From Bacteroidales bacterium (GTDB lineage Bacteria; Bacteroidota; Bacteroidia; Bacteroidales; VadinHA17), in contig PLLX01000173.1 in assembly GCA_003141415.1 (NCBI GenBank), forward strand, positions 1-43,602: DNA of 43,602 nucleotides. The letters run 5' to 3'. Both the position numbers and the translations under genes were made by a program. The notes under the pieces are model-generated. The model searched no databases and was not told the origin of the DNA. It worked only from the letters and a program-made list of their open reading frames with translations. Positions 35,595 through 43,602 of this stretch are shown piece after piece; the stretch's first letter is position 1, and every line of letters starts with the position of its first letter.

Positions 35595-36779
35595 TCAGAT
35601 ATATTCGAAAGTCACTTTTTTAAGCCATTTTTCCTCAAGTAAACGAGCTATCCGTTTTACAACCGTTCTCCTAATTTCAAGATCAACAGGCAGGTTAGGA
35701 TCCTGATGAGCAATATTTATCCTTGTACCGATAATGAAATGAATCTCATCGCTCTCCATGATCAGCCTTACAATCTTATCTGCCGGTCCCTTGCCCAGTT
35801 TGACACTGTTATTATATGTTTTCAATATCTCGTTGACCTTCTGAAGTGTAAGTATTCCTTCAGTCACAAGATCTATCCCTTCAAGAAAACTTTCAGGTGG
35901 AAGCTCCGGATCTTCGAATATTAATTCATCAATAATTGTTCTGTTTAATTCCCTTGCAATTATATCTGCTGTTGTTCCCCCAGATAGAATCACTTTTCCC
36001 TTGTATGACAAAACTTTTGCGGCGAGCTCTTTATCCTTGTCCTTCTCATAAGGGGGACCGGTGCAGATAACAAGTTTACGAGGTTCGCGGAAATAAATTA
36101 TTGCACAGCTGATATCATCACGGGCTTTATAGCTATCGTTTTTGTGAGCCATGGTTACTATCTTGCCGGCAAGCATAATAGCTGATATTGAGGCTTCGCT
36201 TGTTACAAGTGATGCAGCATAGGTTGATATATTTTCCCTTTCCCATCCAAAGGGAAATGGTTCGCTACCCATTCCACTCTGAGAAACGCCATCAGAACAG
36301 AAAATTATCCTGTCTTCTTTCTCGGGCATAAATGAGCAGGTTTTGAGCACTTTGCCTGAGTTTTTCCCTTTGTCAAGCACAACCTTTTTCCAGGAAGGAT
36401 CAAATATCTGGTTTCCTCTTAAAATAACGCATGACGGGTTGTCATATTCCAGAATTGTTGCCCTGCCGCTGCTTTCAATATCAATTATTGTAAAGGTTGA
36501 ATAACTGATCTTCCTTTCACTGCATACCGGCAGGGTGTTCATTATTATTTCAGCTATTCGGTCAACCTCTTTATGCTCACGGGTAAAATTTATGGCCATT
36601 GTCGCTGTGAGGGTGGCAAGAATATTTGCTTTAACGCCATGTCCCATGCCGTCTGAAAGAACAGCTATGACCCTGTCTTCTTCTTTTATATATCTATACA
36701 GAAAGACATCACCACTTATTCTCTCCCCGTCGAAGTTCCTTTGTTGACTGTTAACCTCTATAAAAAAGTTCCTGTTCAC
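35595..36779 (-). CDS. SpoIIE-family PP2C phosphatase linked to the sensory hydrogenase
   Basis: 394 residues. The N-terminal part (about 15-215) is a SpoIIE/PP2C-type serine/threonine phosphatase domain, with AVLSDGMGHGVKANILA (metal-binding Asp) and IIFCSDGVSQSGMG. The C-terminal part (about 215-394) is an alpha/beta domain with KVILSGGTTADIIAREL that I do not recognise by name. It starts 6 bases after the stop of the sensory hydrogenase homologue, so the two are surely co-transcribed. PP2C phosphatases beside PAS-containing [FeFe]-hydrogenases are a known arrangement and suggest that H2 or redox status is converted into protein dephosphorylation. The phosphoprotein target is not in view. 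Cytoplasmic. Confidence 0.88.
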   Translation of the reverse strand: MNRNFFIEVNSQQRNFDGERISGDVFLYRYIKEEDRVIAVLSDGMGHGVKANILATLTATMAINFTREHKEVDRIAEIIMNTLPVCSERKISYSTFTIIDIESSGRATILEYDNPSCVILRGNQIFDPSWKKVVLDKGKNSGKVLKTCSFMPEKEDRIIFCSDGVSQSGMGSEPFPFGWERENISTYAASLVTSEASISAIMLAGKIVTMAHKNDSYKARDDISCAIIYFREPRKLVICTGPPYEKDKDKELAAKVLSYKGKVILSGGTTADIIARELNRTIIDELIFEDPELPPESFLEGIDLVTEGILTLQKVNEILKTYNNSVKLGKGPADKIVRLIMESDEIHFIIGTRINIAHQDPNLPVDLEIRRTVVKRIARLLEEKWLKKVTFEYI

Positions 36780-36785
36780 TTAAGA

Positions 36786-38672
36786 TTATTTCGGATTGGT
36801 TTTCTTATTTACTTTTTTTGATTTATACGACTCAATTATAGAGTTTAGCATCTGCTCGGTTTCTGAGGCTCCTTCTCCAAGCAGGAATCCTATCTTTTGA
36901 ACCATTTCAAGATTCTTATCAATCACTTCACTTACCCTGTTGGTCACCTCTTCCCCTTGTACCTCTGGAGAATAAAGGTCACGGATTATCGCCCCGCAAA
37001 TCTTATTCTTCCTGATTGGAAAGATAGAGACATTCAGCATTTTATCTTCAAAATGGACATCTTTACTCAAAACCGGTTCATCTTCCTTTATTACAAATGT
37101 AAACATATTATATACGTTGAAGGGGATGAGGGTTTTTATATCAGCGCCTGCCAGACCAGGAATTACATCTGATATGGCTTTTGCATCTTCGCCTATTATG
37201 TTTATAAAGCTTTGATTTGAATGAAGTATTTTAAGATTGTTATCAACGATAACCACTCCGGTTGGAAGTTTTTCTAGCATATTATTCATCATGTCAGAAG
37301 TACTCTGGGCAATCTCTTTTTCATGCAGGGCAAGCTCTTCAGATTCTTTTAACGCCTTTTTTGTCTCAGCAAGCTTCCTGTTGGTCTGTCTCAGAGTCTC
37401 AATATATTCCTGCTTATTACGCAGGTTGAAAGTGTGGCACATTTCAGGCACTGCAAGTCCTTTTGCGACTGTGGATGCAAAGTCACGGCAGGAGAGGTAG
37501 CCACACGCGCCGCAGTTGATCTCTTCATTGGGACTATCTTTGCCGATTATTTTAAGTACTTCAGTTATTGCTTCTTCCGGTGGTTCGGGAATTCTCTGAT
37601 CATCAGGAGTAAAGGTTCTGGAAAAATCAAGTTTTGACCATTTTTCCATATTTTTTTGCCAGAGTGCCTTATCAAGTTGTCCTACCCTCTTTTCAGCATA
37701 TCTGCTTACAAGTGCTCTTCTCCTGAACCGTTCATTATGATGCTGCATACCAGGACCAAGCAGGCATCCATGGCAAAAGAAGAGGTTAAAATGATGTTGT
37801 AATGTATCAATGTATTTATCAAAGTCATTTATTGCTTCAAGTATTTCTTCTTTTCCTGAAGCAGTTATAACTCTGCTTGAAACCATATCGCGTTTTATCC
37901 CGCCTGCCTGGATAATCCCGGGTGGTAAAGGATACAGGGCTCCCCAGTTTCCGTGGGGTGGATCAAAATCAGATATTTTAACCAGTCTTTCCTGAATCTT
38001 GAATTCATCAAAAAGTTCCCTTAGTTCCACAAATGTCAGAACCCCATCAACAAGTTTACCTGATTCATAAATAAGTGATTCGTCTTTTGCATCGATACAT
38101 GGACCGATCTGAACTGCGACTACATCAGGTCCGTATAACTTTTTTACAACCATTGCAGTGGCAATGATTGGTGAGACTAATGGAGCCAGGTTGGGAACCA
38201 GCTCAGGGTGAAATTTCTCGACAAGTTTTACTATAGAAGGGCAGTTTGCAGTTATCAGATATTTACCTTCAGCTTTTAAGAAAAGTTTTGCATAAGCTGC
38301 AGCTATAAGATCAACGCCGAATGAATCCTCATGAACATAATCAAAACCCAGTGACCGGATCATAGCAACGAACTTCCTGTAATCGGTTATATCATCAAAT
38401 TCAGATGCGATGCTTGGCTCAATAAGGGCAGCAGTTTTCCTTCCCGATGCTAACAATATCTTTACATCTTCCTTTGAATCGCGGAATTCTATTGCATGAG
38501 GCGTACATGAAACATAGCACAATCCGCAGCCAATGCATCTGTTGGGAAGAATATACGGATGTGCCTTCTGAGGTTTAACCTCGATGGCATTGACAGGGCA
38601 GACCCGAACGCAGGAATATGAATTTCTGCATTTTTCGTCATTTATATAAAGAACAGGTTTTCTATTTGTCAT
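36786..38672 (-). CDS. PAS-containing sensory [FeFe]-hydrogenase homologue
   Basis: 628 residues. A two-cluster ferredoxin domain (CRNSYSCVRVCPVNA and CIGCGLCYVSCTP, residues about 15-62) is followed by the [FeFe]-hydrogenase H-cluster domain (about 80-370). Its motifs are divergent: TANCPSIVKL (Cys144), IGPCIDAKDE (Cys192) and FFCHGCLLGPGM (Cys300 and Cys303, a CxxC instead of the usual CxxxC). A CGACGYLSCRDFA block (about 395-420) gives another 4Fe-4S domain, then a coiled coil and a PAS domain (about 470-570). The architecture matches the group C sensory hydrogenases, thought to sense H2 or redox rather than turn over H2 quickly. It precedes the PP2C phosphatase gene by 6 bases. Cytoplasmic. 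Confidence 0.9.
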   Translation of the reverse strand: MTNRKPVLYINDEKCRNSYSCVRVCPVNAIEVKPQKAHPYILPNRCIGCGLCYVSCTPHAIEFRDSKEDVKILLASGRKTAALIEPSIASEFDDITDYRKFVAMIRSLGFDYVHEDSFGVDLIAAAYAKLFLKAEGKYLITANCPSIVKLVEKFHPELVPNLAPLVSPIIATAMVVKKLYGPDVVAVQIGPCIDAKDESLIYESGKLVDGVLTFVELRELFDEFKIQERLVKISDFDPPHGNWGALYPLPPGIIQAGGIKRDMVSSRVITASGKEEILEAINDFDKYIDTLQHHFNLFFCHGCLLGPGMQHHNERFRRRALVSRYAEKRVGQLDKALWQKNMEKWSKLDFSRTFTPDDQRIPEPPEEAITEVLKIIGKDSPNEEINCGACGYLSCRDFASTVAKGLAVPEMCHTFNLRNKQEYIETLRQTNRKLAETKKALKESEELALHEKEIAQSTSDMMNNMLEKLPTGVVIVDNNLKILHSNQSFINIIGEDAKAISDVIPGLAGADIKTLIPFNVYNMFTFVIKEDEPVLSKDVHFEDKMLNVSIFPIRKNKICGAIIRDLYSPEVQGEEVTNRVSEVIDKNLEMVQKIGFLLGEGASETEQMLNSIIESYKSKKVNKKTNPK

Positions 38673-38700
38673 ACTAACTAATATAAGTGCCTGGAGTTTT

Positions 38701-38814
38701 GCCCCCCATACCCCCTAAAGGGGAGTCAATCCTCAGGGCGTAAATATAATTACTTAAATTACATAGAATTAGTCCCCCTTTAGGTGGAAGTCCCGCTTGA
38801 GCGGGACAGGGGGC
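38701..38814. repeat. Palindromic intergenic repeat, copy B (about 114 bp)
   Basis: It starts GCCCCCCATACCCCC and ends GACAGGGGGC. It contains CCCCCTAAAGGGG, CCCCCTTTAGG and a perfect 8-bp stem GTCCCGCT/AGCGGGAC at 38790-38807. The centre (TAATTACTTAAATTACATAG then AATTAGT) aligns with copy A at 35449. It lies between the [2Fe-2S] gene and the sensory hydrogenase gene, inside the leftward operon. Confidence 0.78.
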
Positions 38815-38898
38815 CTCTATAACCCGCTGCTTCTTTCTGTTATAGTTCTTGATTTTCACCTTTTCACCCCATTAACTTTAGGCACTCCAAACTTTTAT

Positions 38899-39153
38899 TT
38901 ACACTAATCCGGCAAATTCCTTTTCCAGAATGCTCTCTATTTTTGAAAGCGTTACTCCCTCAAGAGTTATGCCGTTTATATTCAGGTTTGGGCCATCACT
39001 ACAGTGGCCCATGCAGCGCGCTCCTTTGAAAATGACTTTATCGTCGAGATGGTTCTTCCTGAGATATTCTCTTATGAACATTACAACATCCTTATTACCT
39101 CTGGAAAAACATGAACTTCCCAGACAGATTTGCATCTCAATTCTCTGAACCAT
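38899..39153 (-). CDS. Small thioredoxin-like [2Fe-2S] ferredoxin
   Basis: About 84 residues from the ATG at 39153 (MVQRIEMQICLG); alternatives are a TTG at 39168 or the ATG at 39135. The four cluster cysteines are visible in CLGSSC and, about 35 residues later, CMGHCSDGPN, the pattern of the NuoE/24-kDa subunit C-terminal thioredoxin-like fold. It is shorter than NuoE and lacks the helical N-terminal domain. Such small proteins often sit beside [FeFe]-hydrogenase and HydABC genes and may carry electrons to or from the sensory hydrogenase. It leads the leftward operon (38899-35595), and the sensory hydrogenase follows after 226 bases that hold repeat copy B. Confidence 0.88.
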   Translation of the reverse strand: MVQRIEMQICLGSSCFSRGNKDVVMFIREYLRKNHLDDKVIFKGARCMGHCSDGPNLNINGITLEGVTLSKIESILEKEFAGLV

Positions 39154-39184
39154 ATTCTTACTGTTCAAAAATAAACAACAACTT

Positions 39185-39423: not shown

Positions 39424-39431
39424 TATATTTG
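39424..39431 (+). promoter_or_regulatory. -7 promoter box for the hydCBA operon
   Basis: TATATTTG is a full match to TAnnTTTG, 30 bases before the hydC ATG at 39462. The -33 position has GTTT (39398-39401) rather than a clean TTG, which could mean dependence on an activator or simply a weak promoter. Confidence 0.6.
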
Positions 39432-39461: not shown

Positions 39462-39932
39462 ATGAGTGCTGATCTTGATATAATTCTGAGAAAATACAAA
39501 CAGGGAAAAAGAGAAGATCTTATTCCTTTGCTTCAGGAAATACAGGATGAGATGGGTTACCTTTCTGAAGAATCTATAGTTAAAACGGGGAGTTTCCTGG
39601 GGCTAAGCACAACAAAAATATATGGTCTTGCCACATTTTATGACAGGTTCAGGTTCATTCCATCCGGTAAAATTCAGATAAGTATATGCCACGGCACATC
39701 ATGCTTTCTCAACGGGTCACAATCAATCATTAATAAAATAAAAGAAGAGACCGGAGTAATACCAGGACAGACAACCAGGGATGGCAATTTCAGTTATGAG
39801 ATTGTTTCATGTATGGGTGGTTGTTGTAATGGACCGGTTATAAATGTGAACGGGCAATACCACACACATATAAAAGCAGAACAGCTTCCGGATCTGATTA
39901 AAAGATTAAAGTACGTTATTGAAAACGACTAA
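39462..39932 (+). CDS. hydC: HydC/NuoE-like [2Fe-2S] subunit of a HydABC-type complex
   Basis: I start at the ATG at 39462 (MSADLDIILRKYKQ); an upstream TTG at 39429 overlaps the promoter box. The product is 156 residues. The N-terminal helical bundle (about 1-75) has LIPLLQEIQDEMGYLSEE and KIYGLATFYDRF; the C-terminal thioredoxin-like [2Fe-2S] domain (about 80-156) has ISICHGTSCFLNGS and ISCMGGCCNGPV-like VSCMGGCCNGPV, which carry the four cluster cysteines (CxxxxC and CxxxC). It is homologous to NuoE and to the HydC subunit of trimeric [FeFe]-hydrogenases, which passes electrons between the NADH module and the hydrogenase subunit. hydB begins 18 bases after its stop. Cytoplasmic. Confidence 0.93.
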   Translation: MSADLDIILRKYKQGKREDLIPLLQEIQDEMGYLSEESIVKTGSFLGLSTTKIYGLATFYDRFRFIPSGKIQISICHGTSCFLNGSQSIINKIKEETGVIPGQTTRDGNFSYEIVSCMGGCCNGPVINVNGQYHTHIKAEQLPDLIKRLKYVIEND

Positions 39933-39950: not shown

Positions 39951-41885
39951 ATGGAAGATTTGAAAACATTCCTGATAGAAAAGGTTCTTACATTTGAATC
40001 CGATACATTGTCGCCTGAAACAGAGAAGGTATTGCAGCAGGTAAGACGGGACAAAATCGATAAGCCTGTAATCTTTGTGTCTTCAGGTACAAGTAGTGTC
40101 ATTGCGGGATCTGAAAAAACATGTTCAGCAATCGACACATACATTAAGGAGAATGAACTGTCGGCAGGATTTGTCCGTGTCGGGTGTACCGGACCGGCAA
40201 CATTTGAACCACTCGTATGTATTCAGGTTCCGGGGAAAAATAAGCTTTTCTTCAGAAATATAACAGAAGAGAAGGTGGAACCTCTTCTGAATGGTGTTTT
40301 TCATAATGATATAAATGATGATGATCTGGCCGGACAGACCGGCACGAGAGGATTTGAATTATGGGCCGGAATTCCTTTTATGGATGAGCTGCCATTTTTT
40401 GCAAACCAGAAAAGAGTCGTACTTGGCAATTGTGGATGCTATGATCCTGAAAGCATTGAAGAATATATAGCACGCGGAGGTTACCGGTCATATATCAAAG
40501 CTATAAGACATTATACTTTTGAAGAGGTATGTGATATTATTGAAAGAAGCGGACTGAGAGGAAGGAGCGGAGGCGGATATCTGACAGGGTTAAAATGGAA
40601 GCACGCACTTAACACCAGCTCAAACGCAAGATACCTGATCTGTAATGCGAAGGAAAGCGACCCCGGAGCCTTTACCGACAGAACAATACTTGAGAGTGAT
40701 CCTCACCGCTTAATCGAAGGTATTGCAATAGCTGCCTATGCAATAGGAGCTTCGAATGCCATTATATTCATGCGATCGGGTTCGGATCATGCTAAGAACA
40801 GACTTCAGAAAGCAATCGACAAAGCCAGAGAGTACGATCTATTCGGGCATAATATCTACTCCAGTGGTTATAACCTTGATATCGTAATACGTATTGAACC
40901 CGGAGCATTCGTATGTGGCGAAGAGACAGCTCTGATTAATACGCTTGAAGGCAAACGTGGTATGCCTCAACTTAAACCTCCTTATCCGACAACAGCAGGA
41001 TTATTCGGAAAACCAACTGTTATTAACAATGTGGAGACTCTTATGAATGTTCCGCTTATAATGCAAAACGGCCCCGAATGGTTCCGGACTCTGGGAACAG
41101 AAAATAGCCCGGGTACCAAAGTATTTGCAGTCGCTGGAAAAGGCCGTATGTCTGGTGTGGTTGAAATCGAGATGGGTACAACTATCAGGACAATTCTTGA
41201 AGATATTGCTGACGGAATAAAAGAGGGAAAAGAATTTAAAGCCATACAATTAGGAGGGGTATCAGGTTCATTTATAACTACCGAAAACCTTGATATAGCA
41301 ATTGATTATGATGTTCTGAGGGAAAAGGGGATTGGAATGGGCGCAGGCGGATTCGTAATAATCGACGAGAACACTTGCATGGTTGATCTTGTAAGATATT
41401 ATATGGAATTCATCCGTAATGAAAGTTGTGGCAAATGTATCCCATGCCGCGAAGGGACTGGAAGAATGCTTGAGATCCTTGAAAGTGTTATAAGGAAACC
41501 ATTAAATGAAGAATCAGGGACAACCCTCGAGAGGTTTAAAGGAGTCATGCAACTCGAAACAATTGCCTCGGTAATGAAAGACACTTCTCTGTGCGGACTT
41601 GGACAAACAGCTCCGAATCCCTTCATAAGCGCTCTTAAAAATTTCAGAGATGAGTTTGAAGAGCATATTTTTGACAGGAAATGCCGGGCAAACATTTGCA
41701 GAGGACTTAGAACATTTTCAATTGATGTGGACAAATGTACGGGCTGCACAGTATGTGCCGCCAAATGTCCGGTAAATGCGATTTATGGAACACGGCTTCA
41801 ACCGTTTTTTATAGTTGAGGAGAAATGTATCGGTTGTGGTATCTGTTTCGATATTTGTAAGTTCAGTGCAATAAACGTTAAATAG
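39951..41885 (+). CDS. hydB: HydB/NuoF-like NADH-binding flavin and Fe-S subunit
   Basis: 644 residues. An N-terminal thioredoxin-like domain (about 35-110), a NuoF-type FMN/NADH domain (about 150-480) with GRSGGGYLTGLKW, AKESDPGAFTDR and GAFVCGEETALINTLEG, a 4Fe-4S block ESCGKCIPCREGTG, and a C-terminal two-cluster ferredoxin (CTGCTVCAAKCPVNA and CIGCGICFDICK). This is the architecture of HydB of electron-bifurcating hydrogenases and NfnB/NuoF relatives. Odd feature: the N-terminal domain has Ser44, Ser45, Ser48, Ser49 around GTS where the family has cysteines, and only Cys79 of the second pair (VGCTGPA), so its [2Fe-2S] cluster is probably missing. hydA begins 5 bases after the stop. Cytoplasmic. 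Confidence 0.93.
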   Translation: MEDLKTFLIEKVLTFESDTLSPETEKVLQQVRRDKIDKPVIFVSSGTSSVIAGSEKTCSAIDTYIKENELSAGFVRVGCTGPATFEPLVCIQVPGKNKLFFRNITEEKVEPLLNGVFHNDINDDDLAGQTGTRGFELWAGIPFMDELPFFANQKRVVLGNCGCYDPESIEEYIARGGYRSYIKAIRHYTFEEVCDIIERSGLRGRSGGGYLTGLKWKHALNTSSNARYLICNAKESDPGAFTDRTILESDPHRLIEGIAIAAYAIGASNAIIFMRSGSDHAKNRLQKAIDKAREYDLFGHNIYSSGYNLDIVIRIEPGAFVCGEETALINTLEGKRGMPQLKPPYPTTAGLFGKPTVINNVETLMNVPLIMQNGPEWFRTLGTENSPGTKVFAVAGKGRMSGVVEIEMGTTIRTILEDIADGIKEGKEFKAIQLGGVSGSFITTENLDIAIDYDVLREKGIGMGAGGFVIIDENTCMVDLVRYYMEFIRNESCGKCIPCREGTGRMLEILESVIRKPLNEESGTTLERFKGVMQLETIASVMKDTSLCGLGQTAPNPFISALKNFRDEFEEHIFDRKCRANICRGLRTFSIDVDKCTGCTVCAAKCPVNAIYGTRLQPFFIVEEKCIGCGICFDICKFSAINVK

Positions 41886-41890
41886 CATTT

Positions 41891-43602
41891 ATGCTTTTCA
41901 CGATACAAGTAAATAATAAAAAGATCAAAGCCGAGAAGGGCGAAACAATCCTTTCCGCACTTAATCGCAACGGAATTATTATACCGACACTCTGCAGGAT
42001 GAAGGAATTCACCCCCACAGGTGCCTGCAGGATGTGTGTTGTTGAAGTCGAAGGTCGCGACCGCCTGGTTACTGCCTGCTCACAGCCTGTAGAGGAATGG
42101 ATGAAAATTAAAACTCATTCACCCAGGGTGATAACAGCCCGAAAAACAATAGTTGAACTGTTGCTTTCAAACCATCCCGACGATTGTCTTTACTGCGACA
42201 GGAATCTGAACTGTGAACTTCAGCGGCTTTCGGAAGAACTCAATATAAGAGAACGGCGTATACGCGGAAGAAAAATAAAACCCCGTCTCGACCAGTCCAG
42301 CCCTGCTATAATAAGGGAACTATCCAAATGTATTCTCTGCGGGCGATGCGTCAGAGTATGTGAGGAGGTAATAACAGCAACATCACTCGACTTTATCAAT
42401 AAAGGAAAAGAAACACATGTCGGCGCTGCTATGGACAGGGATTTTAACTTTTCGAGCTGTGTTCATTGTGGGCAGTGTGTTCTGGTTTGTCCGACTGGTG
42501 CGCTTCATGAGAAACATAATATTACAGAGGTTCAGGAATACCTGAATAAACCTGAAATAGTAAAGGTCATTCAGTATTCTTCAATGGTGGTTTACGGAAT
42601 AGTCGAAGAACTTGGGATGAGATATACCAGGGAATTTGATAAGATTCTGAATACCATCCTGCGCAAGATTGGTTTTGATAAGGTATATAAAACAGGATTA
42701 GGTACTGATGTTTGTATATCCGAAATAGCAGGTCAGCTCTCCGACAGAATTGAAAATAAGTCAGATAACCCATTATATATCTCTGCTTGTCCGGCCTGGG
42801 TAAAATATGCAGAGCAATTTATTCCTTCACTTATTCCTCAACTATCGACCGTTAAATCTCCACAACAGATTACCGGCGTACTGATAAAAACTCTGGTAGC
42901 TGATCAGCTGCGTGTTAAGCCTGAGGAGATCTTTTCAGTATCTGCAACTCCTTGTATGGCAATGAAATTTGAAGCCCGTCGTGATGGAATGATGAGGAAA
43001 GGGATCAGTGATGTGGATTCCGTTTTGACAGTGAGAGAACTGGCCAGACTTATAAGGCTATATGGCATTGACACTTCAAACATTGAACATGAACCAGCTG
43101 ATGAACCAATGTCCGGAAGAAGCTCAGTCGCCATACTGGCTGAAGTATCAGGGGGGATTGCAGAAGGTGTCATCCGAACATATCATTATCAGAAAATGAA
43201 GAAAGAACCTGATAAACATATTTTTAAAAAGCTGAGATCGGGAGGAACATTCAGAGAAATATCAGTAATGGTGGGTGAGAACGAGGTTAAAGTCGCAGTT
43301 GTCGATGGTCTTACAGGTCTTGAAAAGTTAAAAGTTTTCATTGCATCCGGTAAAAAGTATGACCTTATTGAAGTGATGACCTGCCAGGGCGGATGCGTGC
43401 ACGGGGCAGGCTTATCATTCAATACTTCAAAGGACGAAATTAAGAACAGATCAAAACTGGTCTACCAGGCTGATGATACTGAAGCCATAAATCTGCCCTG
43501 CAAATCACCGGCTCTGATTAATTTATACGAGAAACTGTTAAAAGATAACGCTGACATTGCAGATAAAAAGATATTCTTTACTCATTTTGAGAAAAGAAAT
43601 GT
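41891..43602 (+). CDS. hydA: HydA-like [FeFe]-hydrogenase large subunit with altered active-site residues (3' end cut)
   Basis: About 570 residues are visible and the frame is still open at the window edge. It has an N-terminal [2Fe-2S] domain (CRMKEFTPTGACRMCVVEVE, then a further Cys), a His-Cys3 4Fe-4S site (NHPDDCLYCDRNLNC), two ferredoxin clusters (CILCGRCVRVC and CVHCGQCVLVCPTGA), then the H-cluster domain. The four H-cluster cysteines are present: Cys300 (SACPAW), Cys355 (TPCMAMKFE), Cys498 and Cys502 (TCQGGC). By numbering that happens to coincide with Clostridium CpI, the proton-relay Cys299 is Ala, Glu279 is Ile, Glu282 is Gln, Met353 is Thr and Lys358 is Met, while Ser319 is kept. 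It would be the catalytic subunit of a HydABC-type, possibly bifurcating, hydrogenase, or a diverged form. Cytoplasmic. Confidence 0.9.
   Translation, partial: MLFTIQVNNKKIKAEKGETILSALNRNGIIIPTLCRMKEFTPTGACRMCVVEVEGRDRLVTACSQPVEEWMKIKTHSPRVITARKTIVELLLSNHPDDCLYCDRNLNCELQRLSEELNIRERRIRGRKIKPRLDQSSPAIIRELSKCILCGRCVRVCEEVITATSLDFINKGKETHVGAAMDRDFNFSSCVHCGQCVLVCPTGALHEKHNITEVQEYLNKPEIVKVIQYSSMVVYGIVEELGMRYTREFDKILNTILRKIGFDKVYKTGLGTDVCISEIAGQLSDRIENKSDNPLYISACPAWVKYAEQFIPSLIPQLSTVKSPQQITGVLIKTLVADQLRVKPEEIFSVSATPCMAMKFEARRDGMMRKGISDVDSVLTVRELARLIRLYGIDTSNIEHEPADEPMSGRSSVAILAEVSGGIAEGVIRTYHYQKMKKEPDKHIFKKLRSGGTFREISVMVGENEVKVAVVDGLTGLEKLKVFIASGKKYDLIEVMTCQGGCVHGAGLSFNTSKDEIKNRSKLVYQADDTEAINLPCKSPALINLYEKLLKDNADIADKKIFFTHFEKRN

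Follow-up and report, generated by a model that had tools for sequence, protein, structure and literature searches.

Loss of proton-path and pocket residues in a Bacteroidales HydABC complex, with a coupled change in its flavin subunit and a conserved signalling neighbourhood

The window, a stretch of 43,602 nucleotides that is the whole of contig C160 of a Bacteroidales genome (G000; 5.26 Mb, 81.75% complete), raises the question of what a hydrogenase-like subunit may do when it keeps the four H-cluster cysteines and lacks the residues of the proton relay and of the diiron pocket. This subunit is designated HydA*, and its complex with HydB* and HydC* as HydABC*. It lies at the end of the contig with the following features.

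41891..43602, plus strand: HydA*, a HydA/BfuA-like subunit whose open reading frame runs open to the contig end
42782..42799, plus strand: L1 motif SACPAW (residues 298-303), relay Cys299 replaced by Ala, ligand Cys300 kept
42947..42973, plus strand: L2 motif TPCMAMKFE (residues 353-361), Met353 replaced by Thr and Lys358 by Met, Cys355 kept
43376..43396, plus strand: L3 motif MTCQGGC (residues 496-502), equivalents of Cys499 and Cys503 kept

About three residues and the stop codon are missing from the C-terminus, as close relatives terminate in ...KRNVLL. The three motifs and the four H-cluster cysteines, which a first-pass annotation of this DNA had pointed out, are present at these residues. 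Direct alignment to the CpI chains in the PDB bore out its list of lost relay and pocket residues (C299A, E279I, E282Q, M353T and K358M) and, for the window, of kept ones (S319, R286 and the KSPQQ block); M497 is kept too. The same alignment revealed further changes absent from that list, namely A230S, P231S, A498T and the loss of the L3 tail (GGGQP to GAGLS). P231 is kept in most relatives and changed in the window, while residue 286 varies across the clade (R, K, N, E, S, Q, V, I, A, G, L). From the group A proton path, comprising C299, E279, E282 and S319, only S319 is left in the HydA* of the window. All 21 aligned clade members have Ala299 and Met358, and the two residues are found jointly in 68 of 116 distinct sequences, which places the pattern beyond chance. 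A sequencing error as the cause of the substitutions was rejected, since the same residues are found in many separate assemblies.

The first-pass annotation had proposed, among other readings, a biased enzyme. That HydA* still works as a hydrogenase, either strongly biased or with its protons taking another path, would be supported by its retained fold and cysteines, and by CpII and CpIII, which are reported in the available text to be biased yet active with Thr or Gly at 353. According to the accessible part of the mutational study of CpI, single changes C299A or E279A/Q left less than 1% of the activity and E282Q left 8.2%, while C299D and R286A were mild (PMC6226526). Replacement of a cationic residue beside the distal cyanide, given as an arginine in the portion available of a review, yielded inactive enzyme devoid of [2Fe] signals (PMC11376134). 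In HydA*, three proton-path positions and position 358 are changed together. We take the arginine of the review to be Lys358 of CpI, an equation of which a 2012 study by Knoerzer is reportedly the source, and Lys358 presumably contacts the distal cyanide. A biased enzyme is thus unlikely, and with the weaker constraint on the H-domain than in the paralogues (see below) an active hydrogenase of either kind is very unlikely. The four retained cysteines make a [4Fe-4S] cubane probable in the H-domain; as Ser319, KSPQQ and Met497 are kept with them in the window, a modified diiron site is possible. Judged from its residues, HydA* would probably lack both the diiron site and H2 turnover.

The overall architecture is that of a trimeric hydrogenase. 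The domains of HydA* follow the M3-type order, its partners are HydB and HydC, and no Pfam domain was found C-terminal of the H-domain, i.e. neither a C-terminal [4Fe-4S] domain nor PAS in the same chain. Its best PDB match is 8a6t_A, both by sequence and by predicted structure. The AlphaFold2 model, free of cofactors, is mostly confident in the H-domain (residues 211-500; ten-residue blocks with pLDDT of 67-95 and one of 46) and poor in the FeS domains (mean pLDDT 62.7 overall); it supports the fold of the H-domain only and says nothing on the diiron site. PF02906 matches four proteins of the genome, which are HydA*, the neighbouring HydS1 and two canonical HydA paralogues on contigs C98 and C182. 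The protein of the window falls below all four curated [FeFe]-hydrogenase cut-offs, two of which are passed by the canonical paralogues. It scores 564 bits against NF040763 (cut-off 765; paralogues 884.9-887.5) and 341.8 bits against TIGR02512 (cut-off 405.95; paralogues 522-526.3). Four scanned sister sequences with Lys358 are intermediate, L048 exceeding the cut-offs of both NF040763 and TIGR02512, and L130, L119 and L161 that of TIGR02512 alone.

A group B-like core, also suggested initially, did not survive these comparisons. CpIII of group B resembles HydA* in its small residue at 353 (Gly in CpIII, Thr in HydA*), but it keeps the relay cysteine in TSCCCP where HydA* reads SACPAW, and the group B1 model in NCBIfam is labelled monomeric. 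Placement in group B was rejected by a TIGR04105 score of 148.7 bits against a cut-off of 450, by the absence of TSCCCP and by a tree, built with group B sequences left out, in which HydA* falls in the HydABC lineage.

The extent of the substitutions was followed in relatives, typed here by residues 299/358 (A/M for Ala299 with Met358). The family-level search gave matches at E 1e-60 in 74 of 98 genomes, canonical paralogues included. After dropping identical copies, 116 distinct HydA proteins that align over 380 residues or more were obtained from loci L001-L163. They comprise A/M (68), H/A (3), C/K (28, two of them the canonical paralogues), D/K (10), S/K (3), S/R (2), C/R (1) and N/K (1). 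Lys or Arg358 is thus kept in 45 of the 116, i.e. 43 sister sequences and the two canonical paralogues, and the cation is replaced throughout the clade, by Met in 68/68 and by Ala in 3/3. Among these 116 proteins the loss of Lys358 is confined to those with Ala or His at 299. Ninety-five HydA positions are conserved in the sister lineage and in both canonical paralogues, and five of them (143, 282, 381, 508, 539) are lost in A/M proteins by the threshold used; position 358 lies outside this list because the sister sequences carry either Lys or Arg there.

The order-level search matched 134 of 393 genomes at E 1e-150. The 30 matches examined were that of the window itself, L135 of the same genus, and 28 of other families, all 28 having Lys or Arg at 358. 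At phylum level, one of 395 genomes matched at E 1e-190, which was the window's own, the number of family members within the 395 being uncounted. The sample therefore shows a loss of Lys358 restricted to one family, as a pattern short of proof. A scan of named genomes confirmed 138 relatives, the best 80 of which were kept; the titles of these 80 name Bacteroidales, Bacteroidia, Bacteroidetes/Bacteroidota, Rikenella or Lentimicrobium, and their types are A/M (60), D/K (8), C/K (7), S/K (3), S/R (1) and N/K (1).

A maximum likelihood tree of 72 rows (quick method, SH-aLRT support only) was built with 15 of the 68 A/M sequences and with T. kivui, A. woodii and T. maritima as references; sequences of groups C and D were left out as were those of group B. 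All 18 rows without Lys358 form one clade (SH-aLRT 100), whose stem has a length of 0.55 changes per column. This clade is nested in a Bacteroidales HydABC lineage of 61 rows (SH-aLRT 100), which excludes the canonical paralogues and the references, and the split of A/M from H/A rows within it is weak (support 29). Sister sequences such as L119, L126, L130 and L150-L153 carry natural Asp, Ser or Asn at relay position 299 with Lys or Arg358 kept. One genome (G087) has two HydA* copies, L006 and L053, on contigs C4 and C16, which are 97% and 94% identical to that of the window.

The electron-entry subunits lie directly upstream.

39951..41885, plus strand: HydB*, a NuoF/BfuB-like flavoprotein with C-terminal 2x[4Fe-4S], upstream of HydA*
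40071..40220, plus strand: N-terminal thioredoxin-like region of HydB*, cysteines of the [2Fe-2S] (B5) site lost
40566..40568, plus strand: Ser206 of HydB*, in GRSGGG
40650..40652, plus strand: Lys234 of HydB*, in NAKESD
39462..39932, plus strand: HydC*, a NuoE/BfuC-like [2Fe-2S] subunit with an ATG start (alternative TTG start at 39429)

Both subunits carry the BfuB/BfuC domain set, with the Nuo51 FMN, NADH 4Fe-4S and 2x4Fe-4S domains and a Trx-like BfuC; for the fourth BfuB domain, IPR019554, there was no match by name in HydB* at E 0.001. The domain set and the gene order agree with the earlier statement that complete electron-entry domains sit in a HydCBA operon. The B1, B2, B3 and B4 motifs of HydB and the cysteines of HydC are retained. 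HydB* may still bind NADH, since its GEET motif and the Glu in NAKESD are both retained.

Comparison of HydA and HydB locus by locus (62 A/M, 3 H/A and 38 Lys/Arg358) revealed that the flavin subunit changes along with HydA. The partners of A/M HydA have Ser in the glycine loop with Lys at the NAKESD position in 60 of 62, Ser with Arg in one, and Lys with the loop missing in one. Those of H/A HydA have Ser with Arg in two and Ser with Met in one. The 38 partners of Lys/Arg358 HydA have Gly or Ala in the loop in 37, the site being missing in one, and in 38/38 the residue at the NAKESD position is Asp, Asn, Gly or Ala. Lys234 is the residue just N-terminal of a Glu-Ser peptide of the FMN/NADH site, and this peptide flips with the redox state of FMN in Aquifex NuoEF, as described in the available text of PMC6560083. 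The N-terminal [2Fe-2S] site was scored at four aligned places, short rows being set aside (26 A/M, 28 Lys/Arg358). One B5-site cysteine is kept in 57/58 A/M HydB and none in 1/58, none is kept in 3/3 H/A partners, and in the Lys/Arg358 group three are kept in 16/18 and one in 2/18. Since the canonical C98-type HydB reads VCGGTSC...GCFGFC there, the loss of cysteines from the site had begun in the sister lineage, and in the clade hardly any are left.

A long stem (0.55) and a fast H-domain could also be expected of a decaying paralogue without function. The selection data make such decay almost negligible as an explanation. Of 30 listed pairs of the window gene with a relative, 15 have a finite dS, and their dN/dS of 0.024-0.056 indicates strong purifying selection; the mean column identity of the HydA* alignment (A1) is 78%, no internal stop was present among the HydA* matches listed from the family-level search, and the operon is fixed. 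For genomes carrying both HydA* and a paralogue, mean pairwise amino-acid differences were compared separately for the F- and H-domains; most of the matched genomes (6/9 and 9/12) belong to a set of nine without maturase hits (see below). In nine matched genomes the F-domain difference is 0.151 for HydA* vs. 0.148 for the C98 type and the H-domain difference 0.353 vs. 0.133, while in twelve matched genomes the values against the C182 type are 0.160 vs. 0.117 and 0.366 vs. 0.142. The H-domain thus differs about 2.6 times more in HydA* than in the canonical paralogues of the same genomes. The corresponding H/F ratios are 2.34 and 2.29 for HydA*, 0.89 and 1.21 for the canonical paralogues, and 1.48 for the Lys358 sister lineage. 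The electron chain of HydA* is held about as tightly as that of the canonical paralogues, somewhat less than that of the C182 type, and the catalytic domain is looser.

The following genes lie on the opposite strand of the window.

38899..39168, minus strand: small thioredoxin-like [2Fe-2S] ferredoxin, divergent from HydC*
36786..38672, minus strand: HydS1, with hydrogenase-like and FeS domains and a PAS-like C-terminal region (weak match, PAS sensor-kinase model only)
35595..36779, minus strand: SpoIIE-type protein phosphatase, adjoining HydS1

In relatives, the operon is conserved in the order HydC, HydB, HydA*, HydS2 histidine kinase, response regulator, hybrid kinase and Rex, with HydS1 and the SpoIIE phosphatase opposite. 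HydS2 is a hydrogenase-like domain fused to a histidine kinase; the contig ends before its place, and none was found elsewhere in the incomplete genome of the window. The downstream survey covered those 54 of the best 80 of 138 named loci that have at least 6.5 kb (40 A/M, 14 Lys/Arg358), the domains being named from Pfam hits on the proteins of L049, L035 and L041 and the other loci assigned to these by BLAST. Among the 40 A/M loci from these best 80, HydS2 is found in 38, the response regulator, hybrid kinase and Rex in 40 each and RibF in 39, with the exact order HydS2-RR-RRHK-Rex-RibF in 35. The 14 Lys/Arg358 loci of the same set have HydS2 in 12, the response regulator in 13, the hybrid kinase in 12, Rex in 11 and RibF in 9. 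The divergent HydS, SpoIIE and Trx genes accompany 29, 29 and 29 of 29 A/M loci and 3, 3 and 2 of 3 H/A loci. For the Lys358 types they accompany all four D/K and both S/K loci, 1, 1 and 1 of three C/K loci, and none of one N/K locus. As HydS2, Rex and the divergent genes also stand beside Lys/Arg358-type HydABCs, these neighbours predate the loss of Lys358, and the signalling genes alone do not show that HydA* signals. Two of the 40 A/M loci, L078 and L083, have lost HydS2, and in them HydA* is followed immediately by the response regulator, the hybrid kinase and Rex, so HydS2 is not the sole possible partner of HydA*.

The same survey bears on a bifurcating enzyme of the Bfu kind, in which HydABC* would use another third substrate and electrons would exit through a [4Fe-4S] cluster at the H site. 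The Bfu family shares the HydB/HydC core and already includes HydA-like subunits that have given up H2 as a substrate: about half of the HydABC-type complexes are non-hydrogenases and, in the NiFe-type Bfu, a [4Fe-4S] cluster replaces the H-cluster of the HydA-like subunit, according to the text available from Schut et al. 2022 (PMC9304861). Neither an alternative catalytic domain nor a neighbouring subunit is visible for HydABC*. The largest gap before an assigned downstream gene is 465 nt in the 40 A/M loci (from the best 80 of 138), leaving within the operon no room for an oxidoreductase or other subunit gene between HydA* and the last assigned signalling gene. The altered flavin loop and the lost B5 cysteines of HydB* also stand against this alternative, as the B5 cluster, conserved in BfuBC, is counted there among the absolutely conserved cofactors (PMC9304861, available text). 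A Bfu-kind enzyme is accordingly distinctly unlikely.

Sensory hydrogenases provide the other obvious comparison. Groups C and D (TmHydS, TamHydS) resemble HydA* in having Ala in place of C299, in having lost most of the group A proton path and in their signalling neighbourhood. These sensory hydrogenases do without the same relay and are often encoded in one operon with a group A hydrogenase, as stated in the accessible text of PMC10055695, PMC10407848 and PMC8163306. They are reported, again in text available in part, to have usually Ala at 299 and Gly, Ser or Thr at 353, and to turn over H2 despite the missing relay. HydABC* could by analogy be a slow H2 sensor with an H-cluster tuned like that of group C/D, reporting H2 and the NADH/ferredoxin state to HydS2; the H-cluster cysteines and Met497 kept in HydA* and the signalling operon fit this. 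Nevertheless, Lys358 and the L3 GGGQ are lost too, and a cation near the distal cyanide is needed for the [2Fe] site in the available text of PMC11376134. Moreover, HydS2 looks the better H2-sensing unit, as it keeps the Lys358 equivalent: beside A/M HydA*, Asp299 and Lys358 equivalents are present in 79/79 HydS2 rows (repeats of the same genome included). Taken together, a slow H2 sensor is unlikely. Groups C and D also consist of HydS proteins, with a fused PAS in group C, whereas HydA* is a subunit of a trimer that has HydS neighbours besides. HydS1 beside A/M HydA* lacks the Lys358 equivalent in 54/54 rows (repeats of the same genome included). The HydS1 of the window, which lacks it too and has CxxC instead of CxxxC in L3, is so probably likewise without a normal H-cluster.

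The reading that we favour, at about even confidence, is that HydABC* is a hydrogenase-derived redox relay which feeds signal transduction, probably without a diiron site. The kept electron chain and four cysteines, the lost proton path and cyanide anchor, the altered flavin loop and the fixed signalling operon together point to a relay rather than to a turnover enzyme. HydABC* would descend from a bifurcating [FeFe]-hydrogenase. HydB*, HydC* and the conserved FeS chain of HydA* would carry electrons from a soluble carrier, i.e. ferredoxin and possibly a nucleotide, to an H-domain that probably holds a [4Fe-4S] cubane and no working diiron site. The redox reading may then be passed to HydS2, the response regulators, the Rex repressor and the divergent HydS1-SpoIIE pair, and signalling to HydS2 would proceed by electrons or by contact. 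The first-pass suggestion of a subunit with another reaction was in the right direction. More tentatively, and with somewhat less than even confidence, a whole bifurcating complex stripped of its H2 chemistry and retuned at the flavin site may serve as the redox-input arm of a phospho-signalling system, in which HydABC* weighs the ferredoxin and NADH pools and sets the H2-sensing HydS2 kinase and the SpoIIE branch.

HydABC of T. maritima and T. kivui is assumed here to be HydDB group A3. Taking that group by its structures (T. kivui HydA1, 8a6t; A. woodii, 7q4v; T. maritima, 7p5h), the subunit set, domain order, FeS chain and fold are alike. HydA* differs in being without C299, E279, E282, M353 and K358 and in its changed L3 tail, and HydB* in its flavin loop and N-terminal [2Fe-2S] site. 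Closer to it is a third Bacteroidales HydABC lineage with HydS2-RR-Rex (e.g. L048, L130, L161), which belongs to the same tree lineage, is 46-52% identical and has a mostly similar downstream operon. These sisters keep Lys/Arg358 and usually E282, and have Cys, Asp, Ser or Asn at 299. No description of the HydA* clade, or of a sensory turn of a trimer HydA with co-change of HydB, was found in the titles and first lines of abstracts listed from open-licence PMC. Sensory hydrogenases of groups C and D without the relay are known; what appears to be new, within that search, is a HydA subunit of a trimer with a co-changed HydB. Sensory hydrogenases, for which direct physiological proof is scarce, bear on the question of how anaerobes gauge their balance of H2, ferredoxin and NADH. 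Here one lineage offers a graded natural series, from Cys299/Lys358 through Asp, Ser or Asn299 with Lys/Arg358 to the His/Ala or Ala/Met branch, with the flavin subunit changing in step. With this series it can be tested directly whether a hydrogenase can be converted to a role in signalling, and the loss of which residue abolishes the diiron site.

The maturases were surveyed as well. Many of the HydA*-bearing genomes have them, often with HydG a few kb downstream, whereas no HydE, HydF or HydG above cut-off was found in G040, G061, G065, G067, G069, G082, G088, G091 and G096. These nine genomes are of the window's genus, are up to 100% complete and keep canonical HydA with C299 and K358; either the maturases were missed or maturation is different there. 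Missing maturases as proof of an H-cluster-free HydA* were therefore dropped, since the same genomes keep canonical paralogues. The canonical HydA on C182 of the window genome (L001) and its orthologues read TSCSPGW, with Ser in place of ligand Cys300 in 15/15 sequences seen, and the same Ser is found at this place in A. woodii HydA1 (7q4v). In the intergenic region at 38700-38830 of the window, complementary runs (CCCCTAAAGGGGAG ... CCCCCTTTAGG) read by eye may form a palindromic repeat.
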